Below, one piece after another: positions 1,022-55,819 of a stretch of 64,000 nt of DNA. Positions within the stretch are counted from its first letter, which is position 1. Each line of letters starts with the position of its first letter. This stretch comes from Planotetraspora kaengkrachanensis (GTDB taxonomy: Bacteria > Actinomycetota > Actinomycetes > Streptosporangiales > Streptosporangiaceae): NCBI RefSeq assembly GCF_016862895.1, contig NZ_BONV01000010.1, forward strand, positions 124,001 to 188,000. The letters run 5' to 3'. The notes beneath the pieces were generated by a model, which was not told the DNA's origin, searched no databases, and was given only the letters and a program-made list of their open reading frames with translations. The position numbers were made by a program, and so were the translations under genes.

Positions 1022-2167
1022 ATGAGCGACCGCGTTCTCGGCGTCGTCATGAACGGCGCGACCGGGCGGATGGGATACCGCCAGCATCTGGTCCGTTCCG
1101 TTCTCGCCATCAACGAGCAGGGCGGGGTGACCCTGACCGACGGCGGCCGGGTGAGCCTGCGCCCCGTACTCGTCGGCCGCGGCCTCGGCAAACTCGCCGA
1201 CATCGCCGAGCGGCACGGCGTCGCCGACTACACCACCGACCTGGACGCCGCCCTGGCCGATCCGGCCAACGAGATCTACTTCGACGCCCAGGTCACGCAG
1301 GCCCGGGTGCCCGCGACGCTCAAGGCGATCGCGCGGGGCAAGCACGTCTACACCGAGAAGCCGACAGCCGAGACTCTCGCCGACGCCGTGCGACTGGCCC
1401 GGGCGGCCGAGGACGCCGGGGTGAAGAACGGCGTCGTGCAGGACAAGCTCTTCCTCCCTGGCCTGCTCAAGCTCAGGCGCCTCGTCGACGGCGGGTTCTT
1501 CGGCCGGATCCTCTCGGTGCGCGGCGAGTTCGGCTACTGGGTGTTCGAGGGCGACTGGCAACCGGCGCAACGCCCCTCGTGGAACTACCGGGCCGAGGAC
1601 GGCGGCGGCATCGTGCTCGACATGTTCCCGCATTGGACCTACGTGCTGGAGAACCTCTTCGGCCGGGTGGAGTCGGTGTACGCGCACGTCAGCACGCACA
1701 TCCCAGAGCGTTGGGATGAGAACGGCAAGGCGTACGCGGCGACCGCCGACGACGCGGCCTACGGCGTCTTCGAGCTCGAAGGCGGGATCGTCGCCCAGAT
1801 CAACTCCTCCTGGGCGGTACGGGTGAACCGCGACGAACTGGTGGAGTTCCAGGTGGACGGAACCCACGGCAGCGCGGTCGCCGGGCTTCGCGAGTGCCGG
1901 ATCCAGGACCGCGCCGGCACGCCGCGGCCGGTGTGGAACCCCGACCAGCCCGCCACCGAGTCGTTCCGCGACCAGTGGCAGCGGGTGCCGGACAACGCCG
2001 ACTTCGACAACGGCTTCAAGACCCAGTGGGAGATGTTCGTCCGGCACGTGCTTGAGGATGCTCCGTTCCCCTACTCGTTCGCCGCCGGCGCCCGCGGCGT
2101 CCAGATCGCCGAACTCGGCCTGCGTTCCCACGTGGAGGGCCGCCGCCTCCGGGTGGAGGGGCTGTGA
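1022..2167 (+). CDS. Gfo/Idh/MocA family NAD(P)-dependent oxidoreductase
   Basis: 381 residues. These enzymes oxidise or reduce hydroxyl groups of sugars or inositols using NAD(P). The N-terminus is a Rossmann fold and the family signature EKP is in KHVYTEKPTAET (about residues 110-120). A C-terminal alpha/beta substrate domain follows, with GGGIVLDMFPHW typical of the catalytic-site segment. The ATG at 1022 is chosen because AGGAG (1009-1013) lies 8 bases upstream; the alternative GTG at 1013 overlaps that ribosome binding site. It overlaps the next gene by GTGA, so translation is coupled. With the DUF993 and isomerase genes downstream and a LacI repressor, it forms a carbohydrate catabolic block; the substrate cannot be read from sequence. 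Confidence 0.88.
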   Translation: MSDRVLGVVMNGATGRMGYRQHLVRSVLAINEQGGVTLTDGGRVSLRPVLVGRGLGKLADIAERHGVADYTTDLDAALADPANEIYFDAQVTQARVPATLKAIARGKHVYTEKPTAETLADAVRLARAAEDAGVKNGVVQDKLFLPGLLKLRRLVDGGFFGRILSVRGEFGYWVFEGDWQPAQRPSWNYRAEDGGGIVLDMFPHWTYVLENLFGRVESVYAHVSTHIPERWDENGKAYAATADDAAYGVFELEGGIVAQINSSWAVRVNRDELVEFQVDGTHGSAVAGLRECRIQDRAGTPRPVWNPDQPATESFRDQWQRVPDNADFDNGFKTQWEMFVRHVLEDAPFPYSFAAGARGVQIAELGLRSHVEGRRLRVEGL

Positions 2168-3339
2168 CCTCGGCTGGGCGGGTCATCTCGCTGCCCGGGA
2201 CGCGAGAGCCGTACGAACTGGGGGAACCGGTCGCCTGGGCGCGCCCGGGCGGACCGCCGGTGCGCCGGGTCGCCTACGCGGCGGCGCACGTGGTCGCGGA
2301 CGCCCGCGCGGACAACGGCCCCGGCAGGCCCGCCGCGGTCGACTGGGACGCCACCCTGCGCTTCCGGCGCCACCTGTGGTCGTACTCCTTCCGCGTCGCG
2401 GACGCCATGGACACCGCGCAGCGGAACATGGGCCTTGACTGGCCCGCGACCCGCGAGCTGATCGCGCGCAGCGCCGCCGAGGCGCGGTCGCTGGGCGATC
2501 CCGCCGACCTGCTGGCCTGCGGCGCGGGCACCGACCACGTGCCGGACGCGGGCACGCTCGACGCGGTCACCATCGCCTACCTGGAGCAGATGGAGGCCGT
2601 CCGCGCGGCGGGCGCCGGGCTGATCCTGATGGCCAGCCGTCAGCTCGCCCGGGTCGCGTGCGGGCCCGAGGACTACCACGCGGTGTACGGCAGGCTCCTC
2701 GGCCAGGCGGACCGGCCGGTGATTCTGCACTGGCTGGGCGAGATGTTCGACCCGCAGCTCGCCGGGTACTGGGGGTCGGCCGACGTGGACGAGGCCACCG
2801 AGTCGTTCCTCGCCCTCGTCCGCGAGCACGCCTCCAGGGTCGAGGGCGTCAAGGTGTCGCTGCTGGACGAGGACCACGAGGTGCGCCTGCGCGCGGCCCT
2901 GCCGGAGGGCGTGCGGCTCTACACCGGGGACGACTTCAACTACCCCTCGCTCATCAGGTCGGGGTCGCACGCGCTGCTGGGGATCTTCGACGCCATCGCC
3001 CCGGCGGCCGCTGCGGCGCTGGAGGCGCTGGATCAGGCCGAGACGGCCGATGAGGCGGGTGCCAGGGCTCGACATTTCGCCATTTATGAGGAGATATTCG
3101 GGCCGACGGTGGCGTTGTCGAGGAAGATCTTCGAGGCTCCGACCTTCCATTACAAGACGGGGATCGTGTTCCTCGCCTGGCTGGCGGGGCACCAGGACGA
3201 GTTCGTCATGGTGAACGGGGCCCAGTCGGCCCGGTCGATCGAACATCTGGCCGAGGTCTTCCGCCTCGCCGACCAGGCCGGCCTCCTCCCCGACCCCGAC
3301 CTGGCCGCCCACCGCATGACCACCCTCCTCTCGGCGTGA
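2164..3339 (+). CDS. DUF993 family protein (dihydrodipicolinate-synthase-like barrel)
   Basis: 391 residues, GTG start overlapping the preceding stop by 4 bases. The protein resembles DUF993, a TIM-barrel family distantly related to dihydrodipicolinate synthase/aldolases, usually found beside Gfo/Idh oxidoreductases and sugar isomerases. Conserved-looking segments are PVILHWLGEMFDPQL, VEGVKVSLLDEDHE (candidate Schiff-base Lys in VKVS) and LYTGDDFNYPSLI. Aldolase or keto-sugar cleavage chemistry is plausible but unproven. The TGA stop is itself part of the first TGATCA motif of the downstream 53-bp repeat array, so the array begins exactly at the end of this gene. Confidence 0.8.
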   Translation: MTSAGRVISLPGTREPYELGEPVAWARPGGPPVRRVAYAAAHVVADARADNGPGRPAAVDWDATLRFRRHLWSYSFRVADAMDTAQRNMGLDWPATRELIARSAAEARSLGDPADLLACGAGTDHVPDAGTLDAVTIAYLEQMEAVRAAGAGLILMASRQLARVACGPEDYHAVYGRLLGQADRPVILHWLGEMFDPQLAGYWGSADVDEATESFLALVREHASRVEGVKVSLLDEDHEVRLRAALPEGVRLYTGDDFNYPSLIRSGSHALLGIFDAIAPAAAAALEALDQAETADEAGARARHFAIYEEIFGPTVALSRKIFEAPTFHYKTGIVFLAWLAGHQDEFVMVNGAQSARSIEHLAEVFRLADQAGLLPDPDLAAHRMTTLLSA

Positions 3340-3730
3340 TCACGCACAGCCCTCCCCTTGGCGTGATCATGCACAGGTTCGCGATCATGCCCGCCGACCA
3401 GCACACCCCTTGGTGGTGATCATGCGCAGATTCACGCGAAGACCCCCCGACCTGCGCCAACGTTGCACGTGATCATGCACAGATTCGTGCACGGCATCCC
3501 CGACCTGCGGAAACACCTTGCGTGATCATGCAGGGGCGAAGCCTCGAGCGCGACACCGCATGATCACGATTGACGTCGCCCCAGCCTGGGCGCCCTGATC
3601 ACGAATCTCTGCATGATCACCAAAGGGATCAGTCCAGCTCAGGAGGCCTGATCACGAACCTGTGCATGATCACCCCAAAGAGGGGAGCCGGTGAGGGGAC
3701 ATGATGACGAACTTGTGCATGATCACGCGG
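3337..3730. repeat. Mirror-symmetric 53-bp repeat array 1
   Basis: TGATCA-headed units start at 3337 (27-bp half unit), 3364, 3417, 3470 and 3523: forward orientation, exactly 53 bp apart after the half unit. From 3566 on the units are inverted, with TGCATGATCAC cores ending at 3619, 3672 and 3725, again 53 bp apart. Each inverted unit also carries a second TGATCA-like box 18 bp away (3596, 3649, 3702), itself at 53-bp steps. The centre has 11-bp arms CGTGATCATGC (3521-3531) and GCATGATCACG (3558-3568). The unit is TGATCATGCACAGATTCG, about 12 variable bases, CCGACCTGC, then about 13 variable bases. No protein gene fits this stretch. Function unknown. Confidence 0.92.
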
Positions 3731-27891: not shown

Positions 27892-28070
27892 GACAAGATC
27901 ACGGCCGAGATCGTACGGCACCGGGCCGACAAAATCATCGAACCGAACATTTGCCGCGTGTCGCCTGATATGGCCTGTAGATACGGCAGACGGGATTGCT
28001 CCTCTCCGAGAGCACCCCCCAGCCCTCTCAGAGCAGAACAACCCCGTCTGCTCGAAATAACGTGCCGGTC

Positions 28071-28205
28071 TCAGGTCCTGTTCCCGTTTCGGCGGATATT
28101 CTCGTGATCTGCATCACTATGCTCCCCGGTATCCGATTCGGCGGCCTGGCGCAGCTCCGCGGGCGTCGCGACCCACAGAAACGGCACGGTCAGCACGGCC
28201 ACCAC
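28071..28205 (-). CDS. Possible small single-helix membrane protein
   Basis: 44 residues if GTG 28205 is the start: one hydrophobic stretch (VAVLTVPFLWVAT) and a polar acidic-then-basic tail ending NIRRNGNRT. GGGGGG lies about 7 bases upstream. The reading frame remains open into the repeat array, so the exact start is uncertain. No family recognised. The rest of the interval 27892-28221 shows no gene. Confidence 0.3.
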   Translation of the reverse strand: MVAVLTVPFLWVATPAELRQAAESDTGEHSDADHENIRRNGNRT

Positions 28206-28221
28206 GACGGCACCCCCCGCC

Positions 28222-28570
28222 GCGTGATCATGCACAGACTCGCGCGTGACAGCCCCGACCAGCCCCCACCCCAACCGTGATCATGCACAGCCTCGCGTAC
28301 GGCCAGCCCGACCAGCCCCCACCCCAACCGTGATCATGCACTGACTCGCGTACGGCTGGCCTGACCTGCGCGGCCTCATTTCGTGATCATGCGCGAATTC
28401 GTCGATGTGCGCGGTGACCAGCGGAAACGTTGTTCGTGATCTGGCGCTGGACGCTGCATGGTCACGAACCACGTCACCCCTGATAGGGCTACCGGTCCGC
28501 GAAGGTGTGCATGATCACAAAGTGAATCGGTCCAGGTGAGCGCTCGTTCTCCGAATGCGTGCATGATCAC
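28222..28570. repeat. Mirror-symmetric 53-bp repeat array 2
   Basis: Forward TGATCA units start at 28225, 28278, 28331 and 28384, and the centre at 28437 (TGATCT), every step 53 bp. The first two units share their last 26 bases almost completely (CCCGACCAGCCCCCACCCC...). The centre pairs CGTGATC (28435-28441) with GGTCACG (28460-28466) with one mismatch. Inverted units end at 28464, 28517 and 28569 (steps 53 and 52). Lies between a leftward gene and the rightward PadR gene; stray open frames through it are repeat-driven. Confidence 0.9.
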
Positions 28571-28684
28571 GCCAGAGGTCTGCTGAGCTCGACGGCCGGC
28601 AGCGGCAGCGTGATCTTTAGCACTGGCACACGACACCTAGGTTCGCCGAAATTTCGAGATATGGCTTGTTCTTCAGAACGGTCG

Positions 28685-28694
28685 CGATATATCG
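28685..28694. promoter_or_regulatory. Candidate PadR autoregulatory operator
   Basis: Palindrome CGATATATCG, 44 bases upstream of the PadR start; a related half site CGAGATAT lies about 30 bases further upstream. PadR proteins of actinomycetes commonly bind ATAT-centred palindromes at their own promoters. Confidence 0.5.
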
Positions 28695-28738
28695 TTGAAG
28701 CATCAAGAGATAGTCGAGACCGTTCCAAGGAGGACACC

Positions 28739-29470
28739 ATGACAGCGGCTTTCGCCATGAACGGGCCATGGGCCCATCGAGAGGAGTACCACCGGTTACG
28801 GCACGCGCTGCGCGCCGCCATGAGAGGAGCAGCCATGTGGCACGACGAGCATCACAACCCTGGACCGCAGGAGCACAGGCACAGGGGCGGCCACCGGGGG
28901 CGCGGCCCGTGGGGCGGCTTCGGGCCGGGTGGCCCCGGCGGGCCGTTCGGGCCGGGTGGACCGTTCGGGCCGGGCGGAACGCCCTTCGGCCGGGGGTTCG
29001 GCAGGCCGCGGAAGGCCAAGCGCGGTGACGTGCGCGCCGCCATCCTCGCGCTGCTCGCCGAGGAGCCCCGCAACGGCTACCAGATCATCCAGGAGATCGC
29101 CGAGCGCAGCGAGGGCGGCTGGAAGCCCAGCCCCGGCGCCGTCTACCCGGCTCTCCAGCAGCTCACCGACGAGGGCCTGGTCCGCGCCGAGGAGTCGGAC
29201 GGGCGCAAGACCTTCCAGCTCACCGAGGCCGGCCGCGCGTACATCGAGTCCCACCCGGAGGAGGTGCGGGCGCCCTGGGAGGAGATGACGCCGGACATCG
29301 GCGACAACGTCCACGAGCTGTTCGACCTGTCCCGCCAGGCCGCCTCGGCCCTGTTCCAGCTCGCGCACAGCGGGACCGACGGCCAGGTCAGGCAGGCCAA
29401 GCAGGTGCTGACAGAGACGCGGCGCAAGCTGTACCAGATCCTCGCAGACGGCGACCCCGCCGAGGAGTGA
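28739..29470 (+). CDS. PadR-family regulator with Gly-Pro-rich N-terminal extension
   Basis: 243 residues, longer than the usual PadR size of about 110 to 200. The winged HTH lies at about residues 95-170 (RGDVRAAILALLAEEPRNGY, QIIQEIAERSEGGWKPSPGA, VYPALQQLTDEGLV), followed by a C-terminal dimerisation helix region. Ahead of it is a His-rich segment and a run of PGGPFGPGG repeats (about residues 60-85), a flexible low-complexity arm. ATG 28739 has GGAGG 7 bases upstream. The downstream DUF1707 gene starts 5 bases after the stop, so the two form an operon, probably autoregulated through the palindrome at 28685. Confidence 0.92.
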   Translation: MTAAFAMNGPWAHREEYHRLRHALRAAMRGAAMWHDEHHNPGPQEHRHRGGHRGRGPWGGFGPGGPGGPFGPGGPFGPGGTPFGRGFGRPRKAKRGDVRAAILALLAEEPRNGYQIIQEIAERSEGGWKPSPGAVYPALQQLTDEGLVRAEESDGRKTFQLTEAGRAYIESHPEEVRAPWEEMTPDIGDNVHELFDLSRQAASALFQLAHSGTDGQVRQAKQVLTETRRKLYQILADGDPAEE

Positions 29471-35393: not shown

Positions 35394-35413
35394 CGAATCC
35401 GTGCATGATCACG
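35394..35413 (-). repeat. Lone 53-bp-family unit on the hen1 stop codon
   Basis: On the minus strand CGTGATCATGCACGGATTCG, 19 of 20 matches to the array unit head. The TGA stop of hen1 is the first three bases of its TGATCA. Only one unit is present, with no partner 53 bp away. Confidence 0.8.
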
Positions 35414-48240: not shown

Positions 48241-48394
48241 ACCCCCTGGGACACCCCTCTGGGTCGAGACCTGGTTGGGACCGACCCCCTGGGCTGGGAT
48301 CTGGGTTGGGAACACACGGGCCTGGGCTGGGACCGCACCCCCTGGGCCGGGACCTGGGTTGGGAACACACGGGCCTGGGTTGGAAACCTGGGTG
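48241..48394. repeat. G-rich tandem repeat with the same 52-53-bp period
   Basis: CTGGGTTGGGAACACACGGG recurs at 48301 and 48354 (53 bp), and GACCG(C)ACCCCCTGGG at 48279 and 48331 (52 bp). It abuts array 3 directly and keeps the array's period, but the bases differ. GGGTTGGG...GGGCCTGGG runs could form G-quadruplexes on the plus strand. The interval 48167-48240 shows nothing else. Confidence 0.8.
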
Positions 48395-48796
48395 TGATCA
48401 TGCACACCTTCGTGCACTCCCGCCCCGACCACCCCCTCACTTGGGGTGATCATGCACAGATTCGCGAAACACGCCCCGACCTGCTCGTTTCCACTTCGTG
48501 ATCATGCACAGATTCGGTGACGTGCCCGCCGACCTGCGCGAACGGCATCGGTGATCTGGCAACGACAACGACATGCCAGATCACGACAGGTCCCGGACCA
48601 GCCCAGGGAGCATGCCGGCGAATCCGTGCATGATCACGCGCGGCTTCACTCCAGGCCAGGAGCCTGCGCGCGAATGTGTGCATGATCACGCCCGGCGGTG
48701 GGGCAGGTCAGAGCCCACATCCGCGAATGTGTGCATGATCACCCCCAAGAGGGGGGCAGGTCGGCGTGCAGATCTACGAATCCGTGCATGATCACG
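48393..48796. repeat. Mirror-symmetric 52-53-bp repeat array 3
   Basis: Forward units start at 48395, 48447 and 48499 (52-bp steps). The centre begins 53 bp later at 48552. The central hairpin has perfect 11-bp arms GTGATCTGGCA (48551-48561) and TGCCAGATCAC (48574-48584) with a 12-base loop. Inverted units have TGATCA at 48631, 48683, 48736 and 48789 (steps 52, 53, 53); the centre's AGATCA at 48578 is 53 bp before the first of these. CCGACCTGC inner boxes are conserved in most units. Located between a leftward and a rightward gene. Confidence 0.92.
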
Positions 48797-55458: not shown

Positions 55459-55819
55459 CGTGATCATGCGCGGGCCCCCCTTGGGGGTGATCCTGCGCGA
55501 GTCCCCCTTGGGGGTGATCATGCACACCTTCGCGATCAACCACTGTGACCTGCCCCCTCACATTTCGTGATCATGCACAGGTTCGGGATCATGCCCTGCG
55601 ACCTGCGCGGACTCCTCACACGATCATGCAGTCCGGAAATTTCCGGACTGCATGGTCACGGACGCCATCCTCCCAGATCAGCGTTCGCGGGCCCGAAGGC
55701 CTGCATGATCACGCACTGCGACGCCGCAGGCCGTACAGCTGATCACCGAACCCGTGCATGATCACGCCCCGAGTAGGTGCAGGTCGCGAGGGGTGCCGGC
55801 GAATCTGTGCATGATCACC
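55459..55819. repeat. Mirror-symmetric 53-bp repeat array 4
   Basis: Two 27-bp half units start at 55461 and 55488 (each ending CCCCCTTGGGGG), then full forward units at 55515 and 55568, and the centre at 55621 (53-bp steps). Inverted units have TGATCA-type boxes at 55653 (TGGTCA), 55706, 55759 and 55812, all 53 bp apart. The heads read TGATCATGCACAGGTTCG and TGATCATGCACAGATTCG. The array lies between two leftward genes and reaches to the start of the inositol monophosphatase gene. Confidence 0.92.
55625..55654. other. Perfect 30-bp palindrome at the centre of array 4
   Basis: CATGCAGTCCGGAAA followed directly by its exact reverse complement, with no spacer. It is the mirror point of the array: forward units end at it and inverted units begin at it. 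It would extrude as a loop-free cruciform or act as a dyad for a dimeric protein. Confidence 0.95.

Follow-up and report, generated by a model that had tools for sequence, protein, structure and literature searches.

Arrays with a 53-base step built from a 19-base word in Planotetraspora: a candidate family of protein-binding platforms

Here, we describe a family of repeat arrays in which a 19-base word, the head, is repeated every 53 bases beside genes, and which, among the genomes searched, is restricted to five Planotetraspora genomes. In one of the five, the word has been rewritten in place within arrays that are still recognisable. We suggest that the arrays may be platforms for a DNA-binding protein beside gene ends; we regard this reading as evenly poised between right and wrong. 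The analysis set out from a window of 64,000 nucleotides (C10:124001-188000) in the genome of P. kaengkrachanensis (G000; 8.77 Mb in 96 contigs), and the Planotetraspora genomes compared (n = 5) comprise G000, G001, P. phitsanulokensis (G002; NZ_BOOP01000013.1), P. mira (G003; NZ_BOOO01000004.1), and P. silvatica (G004; NZ_BOOQ01000015.1).

Four arrays had been recognised in the window, and a total of hundreds per genome had been projected from them. All four were confirmed (Table 1), and a genome search extended the family far beyond them. When up to three mismatches are allowed, the window contains 67 matches to TGATCATGCACAG, whereas 100 shuffled versions average 9.9 and never exceed 18. 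With the limit set at one mismatch, the whole of G000 yields 324 + 324 matches and the reversed-pattern control 1 + 1, which bears out the projected hundreds. Across 60 genomes including G000, the search with at most one mismatch gave 120 matches in G001, 246 in P. phitsanulokensis, 682 in P. mira, 714 in P. silvatica, and at most 30 in each of the 55 remaining genomes. The general head form GTGATCATGCANNNNTTCG was counted 473, 709, 144, 520, and 567 times in G000 to G004, respectively, and not once in 36 other genomes of the same search. A scan of named genomes returned at least 80 matches, and all those listed come from three Planotetraspora species. Counting as an array at least two heads, we found 35 arrays in a sample of 1.239 Mb of G000 (28 per Mb), from which we estimate by extrapolation about 250 arrays per genome; a stricter first criterion had given 32 arrays in 1.16 Mb. 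The head matches in G000 are uneven among those listed, with 49 on C1 and 2 on C2 (at least 261 kb), and some chromosomal regions may hold fewer arrays than others.

Table 1. Arrays and the isolated head in the window (positions within the window).
Feature	Position	Strand	First to last head	Remarks
Array 1, two-armed	3336..3726	.	3336-3726	forward heads at ~3337, 3364, 3417, 3470, 3523
Array 1, inverted heads	ending at ~3566, 3619, 3672, 3725			
Array 2, two-armed	28224..28571	.	28224-28570	at this site in G000 only
Single inverted head	35399..35412	-		full array there in G001, G003, G004
Array 3, two-armed	48394..48795	.	48394-48795	holds most of the window's 52-bp steps
Array 4, two-armed	55460..55818	.	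55460-55818	same site in all five Planotetraspora genomes

Among the matches listed, no published description of a Planotetraspora array family was found in the openly licensed PMC literature, and Rfam gave no match at gathering score in the window. No analogous arrays were recognised in 14 stretches from 14 genera (261 kb), in which four weak clusters of repeated 10-mers lack a 53-bp step. Twenty-six viral contigs carry one head each, and array 4, the sole array tried against plasmids and phages, had no match there. A genome from another family of the same class (G058) contains repeated copies of TGATCATGAACAG, with several inverted pairs 36 bp apart; this is a different repeat.

In its general structure, the head consists of CGTGATCATGCA, four species-dependent bases, and TTCG. 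From 1.16 Mb, we built a profile of 139 units that depart from a 13-base seed at no more than one position. It reads cGTGATCATGCACAG(A/G)TTCG, followed by some 12 variable bases, cCGACCTGC, another 12 or so weaker bases, and then the next head. Because heads were chosen with at most one mismatch, the conservation of the seed in this profile is partly circular; TTCG and the box played no part in the selection of the units, and both are also kept between species. The profile confirms the inner box CCGACCTGC described for the window, which is located at about +31 to +39 from the head start. The proposal that the spacing between heads is kept and the bases are not was correct for the spacing; the bases, however, are not wholly free, as they include the box and, besides it, weaker preferences.

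In the window, steps of 50 to 56 bp measure 53 bp (16), 52 bp (4), or 54 bp (1), with a mean of 52.86 bp. Over 70 arrays in the five species, 276 of 316 same-strand steps shorter than 75 bp are exactly 53 bp, 10 are 52 bp, and 5 are 54 bp, with orthologous arrays counted separately. The step, originally put at about 52.5 bp, is therefore corrected to 53 bp, and steps across the family are not spread evenly. Because the step is near-constant although the spacers of neighbouring units are on average 43% identical (33-38% for unmatched units), the spacing looks to be under selection, as had been predicted. Orthologous step lengths are likewise kept despite diverged spacers: between G000 and P. 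mira in 27/32 cases (92/133 for ordinary intergenic 53-bp segments), between G000 and P. silvatica in 21/26 (81/117), between P. mira and P. silvatica in 35/37 (167/188), and between G001 and P. mira in 23/27 (29/58). Between G000 and P. phitsanulokensis, the two proportions hardly differ (9/11 vs 121/160), with little excess. Array spacers are more diverged than ordinary intergenic DNA (65% vs 88-89% identity between G000 and P. mira). This pairing of units relied on alignment, in which an error of register would lower the spacer identity and still give 53. A second matching, by reciprocal best units, necessarily loses any unit with an indel and was left out of the spacing evidence. The accompanying claim of helical phasing fared less well: the 25 irregular steps have no significant 10.5-bp periodicity (Rayleigh p = 0.20), and phasing is therefore unsupported beyond 53 bp being near five turns.

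G001 differs from the other species by a switch of dialect: its arrays at shared sites end their heads differently. Of 709 heads in G001, 638 read GCAGAA(C/G)TTCG; GTGATCATGCAGAASTTCG is found 638 times in the whole G001 genome and once in each of G000, P. phitsanulokensis, P. mira, and P. silvatica. When units were matched by their spacers at an identity of at least 0.55, 19 of 24 units shared by G001 and P. mira read GAA in G001; none of these 19 reads GAA in P. mira, where 18 carry C at the first of these bases. Among the exceptions, 2 of the 24 keep the same non-GAA word in both species and three others differ without GAA in G001. GAA is likewise found in G001, and never shared, in 11 of 14 units matched with G000 and in 14 of 20 matched with P. 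silvatica. Because the spacers stayed recognisable while the heads changed, the heads were rewritten in place and not by replacement of whole arrays. The simplest cause would be a shared factor that reads the heads; an alternative is homogenisation of very short tracts. The lone G001-type head in G000 stands at the border of an ordinary array, where the end of a called ORF is overlapped, and may be a fossil or due to chance; for G000, this led us to drop the idea that such a head marks a source gene.

Because the heads changed in place, we favour a trans-acting reader over decaying mobile repeats or an RNA hairpin, and owing to this switch the originally proposed binding platform is the best kind of explanation. 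The arrays would then be an old, genus-specific family of chromosomal binding platforms in which each head (CGTGATCATGCA, the species-dependent bases, and TTCG), together with its box CCGACCTGC, would be one docking site. The docked factor would be trans-acting and sequence-specific, most likely a DNA-binding protein, and would assemble along the array on a fixed 53-bp ruler, with the arms facing each other. Lying outside genes and often at stop codons, a bound array could serve as a roadblock, terminator, insulator, or folding point that leaves promoters undisturbed. Three steps of this reading are inferred: the reader is a protein, its target is DNA and not RNA, and it has one of these roles at the arrays.

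Array order and gene context are consistent with such polar platforms. In the G000 sample, 18 of 35 arrays are two-armed and 17 are one-armed. The mirror order described for the window thus holds strictly for the two-armed arrays, all 18 of which run forward and then inverted, but not for the one-armed ones. Among neighbouring opposed heads, 19 pairs are forward-inverted and 1 is inverted-forward. Based on genes called with our own simple caller, and not on annotation, gaps of G000 that measure 120 bp or more hold arrays in 14/59 convergent, 17/221 co-directional, and 4/154 divergent cases, so that convergent gaps are enriched relative to divergent (p = 5e-6) and co-directional ones (p = 0.0016). 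Among outer array edges in the five species (n = 111, orthologues kept in), 65 have a stop codon as their neighbour (median distance 17 bp); the other 46 look onto a start codon (median distance 86 bp), which speaks against the platform reading. One-armed arrays in co-directional gaps of G000 have no clear bias, with 6 oriented with transcription and 5 against it by hand count, and on these numbers a reading of the arrays along with transcription, as Rho or RNA elements, was dropped. Two split pairs were also seen. In G001 (C18, orthologue of ref 101736, reversed coordinates 86222-86381), a one-armed forward array is followed 0.8 kb on by a one-armed inverted array, and the pair encloses one called gene; a similar pair in G000 (C4, 79133-79364 and 79890-80049) has no called gene in between.

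The preference for convergent genes would also suit long RNA hairpins formed by the inverted arms and acting at transcript ends as bidirectional terminators or decay stabilisers. Consistently, two arrays of the window fold far better as RNA than their shuffles (z = -11.1 and -9.8); they do so mostly through the heads, as is inevitable for an inverted array of conserved heads. An initial comparison in five species, with 47.0% pairing between cognate and 34.5% between non-cognate arms, shrank in G000 after matching for distance from the centre to 46.1% for cognate spacers versus 42.1% for the rank-matched control, a difference reached in 4 of 5000 permutations. The arms thus pair slightly above the control, which a pure DNA-site model does not need. 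In the proposed search for covariation between arms, pairing-preserving double changes proved only slightly enriched (108/235 vs 221/592 on shifted axes, counted from ordered and hence non-independent species pairs). Pairing outside the heads is weak.

The central inverted repeat described for the window arrays proved to consist mainly of two opposed heads. In G000, pairing at centres beyond the head is 0.30 compared with 0.29 in a cross-array control, and the idea of self-complementary centres as a rule was given up for this genome. Some centres are nevertheless long perfect palindromes, as in array 4 (about 55619-55660), where the palindrome is kept in all five species except for one base in P. 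mira and P. silvatica; the higher value over the first 8 positions in 41 arrays of five species (0.46 vs 0.29) can be traced to a handful of shared sites with long palindromes. By eye, a head-to-box stem (CAGGT/ACCTG) is not kept in the G001 dialect and was likewise set aside. A hairpin alone would work without a constant head word, and 17 of the 35 sampled arrays are one-armed; as described above, one-armed arrays have no clear transcription bias. One such array (ref 100797) keeps the same three heads at the same steps in all five species. Steps are similarly exact in one-armed (60/71) and two-armed (216/245) arrays; therefore, no hairpin is needed. The long hairpin RNA envisaged in the original prediction is thus weakened, and we consider it improbable.

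The main rival to the binding platform is a REP/BIME- or MITE-like family of non-autonomous elements that would spread in whole units and be kept alike by continuing turnover, and whose preference for gene ends would reflect the harm done by copies elsewhere. Here, the history of the sites is informative. In a syntenic comparison of regions up to 260 kb, in which synteny was missing for some species at three sites, 4 of 13 array sites are occupied in all five species, 9 in at least two, and 4 in one species only; the last are as expected of mobile repeats, but the 9 sites in common are not. The site of array 1, whose first head supplies, with its TGA, the stop codon of the ORF at 2164-3339, is also occupied in G001, P. 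mira, and P. silvatica and is empty, with flanks 11 bp apart, in P. phitsanulokensis, otherwise the genome most similar to G000. The site of array 3 is occupied in P. mira and P. silvatica, holds a shorter array in P. phitsanulokensis, and is empty in G001 (flanks 92 bp apart). At 35399..35412, P. phitsanulokensis, like G000, keeps a single head. Because whole arrays have been lost in some species, no single array seems to be essential. Degenerate tandem repeats of the CTGGG(T/C)TGGGA type lie directly before array 3 (48250-48392), and most of this stretch is missing from the aligned sequence of the other species.

Array 2 speaks for mobility. It is 83.7% identical to an array on contig C11 of G000 over 350 aligned bases, from the first to the last head and including both arms and the centre, and 75.5% identical to the P. 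mira array at the place matching the C11 array. It is therefore a recent copy of the C11 array with heads as its ends, a single event of MITE-like copying of a defined element, so that the element can still spread and part of the family is mobile. For other pairs of arrays within a species, alignments of 200 bases or more give identities of 64-74%, and such alignments of same-genome arrays over most of their length would be expected of a dispersed family. There is no clean empty site for array 2 among the relatives: at the corresponding place (window 28042-28800), G001 to G004 carry 1.83-1.88 kb instead, so that gene loss and the new array coincide; in P. mira, this segment has two called ORFs, one of them transporter-like on our own reading of its translation.

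The likeness to REP, REPIN, and BIME repeats extends to hundreds of short intergenic copies, often in inverted pairs, with a bias for co-directional and convergent gaps (PMC3733652 and PMC3116915). REPs also lie mainly between co-directional and convergent genes according to PMC3733652, as do 31 of the 35 G000 arrays, and evenly spaced tandem REP arrays are described for P. fluorescens SBW25 in PMC3116915, so that fixed spacing in itself has a precedent. In contrast to REPs and REPINs, the Planotetraspora head of 19-20 bases forms no stem-loop by itself (-0.3 kcal/mol for two heads of the common dialect and 0 for the G001 head, no better than shuffles), neither a GTAG nor a CGTC tag stands beside it in the profile of 139 units, the 53-bp step runs throughout the family, and the word was switched in place in one species. 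No Y1/RAYT transposase was found in G000, P. phitsanulokensis, P. mira, or P. silvatica, in which PF01797 had no match; G001 has four partial or broken matches. As stem-loop unit, tag, and transposase were all not found, membership in the REP/RAYT family was rejected. No clear target duplication was evident by eye at a site occupied only in G001. The alteration of heads in place across the genome, with spacers retained, speaks against spread of whole units. Based on these comparisons, we regard a mobile family as rather unlikely, although it is the strongest of the rivals. The array family is old and mostly vertically inherited, with rare copying and repeated loss.

A minor rival names the reader: the heads would be ARG boxes and the arginine repressor ArgR would act as an architectural protein. 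The resemblance is real. GTGATCATGCAC is located in an ArgR-bound box of Streptomyces coelicolor, AB.SCO5864_0, and the 37 boxes from which we built an ArgR model give the consensus GTCTGCATGATCATGCAGAC (both from Table 1 of PMC5839063), to which the Planotetraspora head core is close. On this model, the mean head score is 8.1 bits in G000 and 8.3 bits in G001, compared with 5.7-17.6 for the bound boxes, a genome mean of -12.4, and a 99.9th percentile of 7.0; because 25 offsets were tried, the score is less striking than it looks. The GAA ending of G001 comes nearer to the ARG-box consensus. However, the GATC centre is invariant in heads and variable in ARG boxes, G takes the place of the consensus A in heads, and the best boxes near argC are other words (GTTCGCATAGTCATGCAGGG in G000 and GCTCGCATACTCATGCAAGG in G001). 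Unlike the Streptomyces ARG boxes (PMC5839063), the heads are asymmetric, lie away from promoters, and follow a 53-bp step. There is one ArgR match in each of 21 genomes, most of which lack these heads. Moreover, the segment TQATLSRDLDELGALKLR, which we take to be the ArgR recognition helix, does not differ among the five Planotetraspora genomes, and G007 and G008, both of which lack the head word, have the identical segment; ArgR therefore leaves the dialect switch unexplained. As ArgR failed this test of dialect, we hold it to be very unlikely as the reader.

With regard to the preferred reading, a binding platform, parS, matS, and KOPS offer a parallel: they are motifs scattered over the chromosome and recognised by a protein of chromosome architecture or segregation, which is putative in Planotetraspora. 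Those elements are single short sites or small clusters, in contrast to the mirror arrays of 350-450 bp with their fixed step described here. The arrays do not have the unrelated, unique spacers of CRISPRs: their spacers have the GACCTGC box in common and can be aligned across species. Compared by word pattern, they resemble the DNA uptake sequences of Neisseriaceae, likewise a short many-copy word with species-specific dialects, which in that family follow phylogeny (PMC3630211); in Planotetraspora, by contrast, the words stand in phased mirror arrays outside genes.

More tentatively, and with rather less confidence than we place in the platform as such, we speculate that the arrays could be a genus-specific, chromosome-wide system. 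A protein that measures 53 bp would assemble on some 250 polar arrays beside gene ends and organise the chromosome or transcript ends; in one species, that protein would have changed together with the word at about 640 sites, leaving places and spacing undisturbed. If the mobile reading were true, Planotetraspora would harbour a REP-like family that lacks the known REP transposase and has an unexplained 53-bp ruler. If instead our best reading is true, the genus would hold a natural record of a factor and roughly 640 of its sites changing together, place, spacing, and dialect would be separable, and the co-evolution of a reader with its sites would be directly testable genome-wide. It would also predict a new architectural or end-of-gene factor in this little-studied group.
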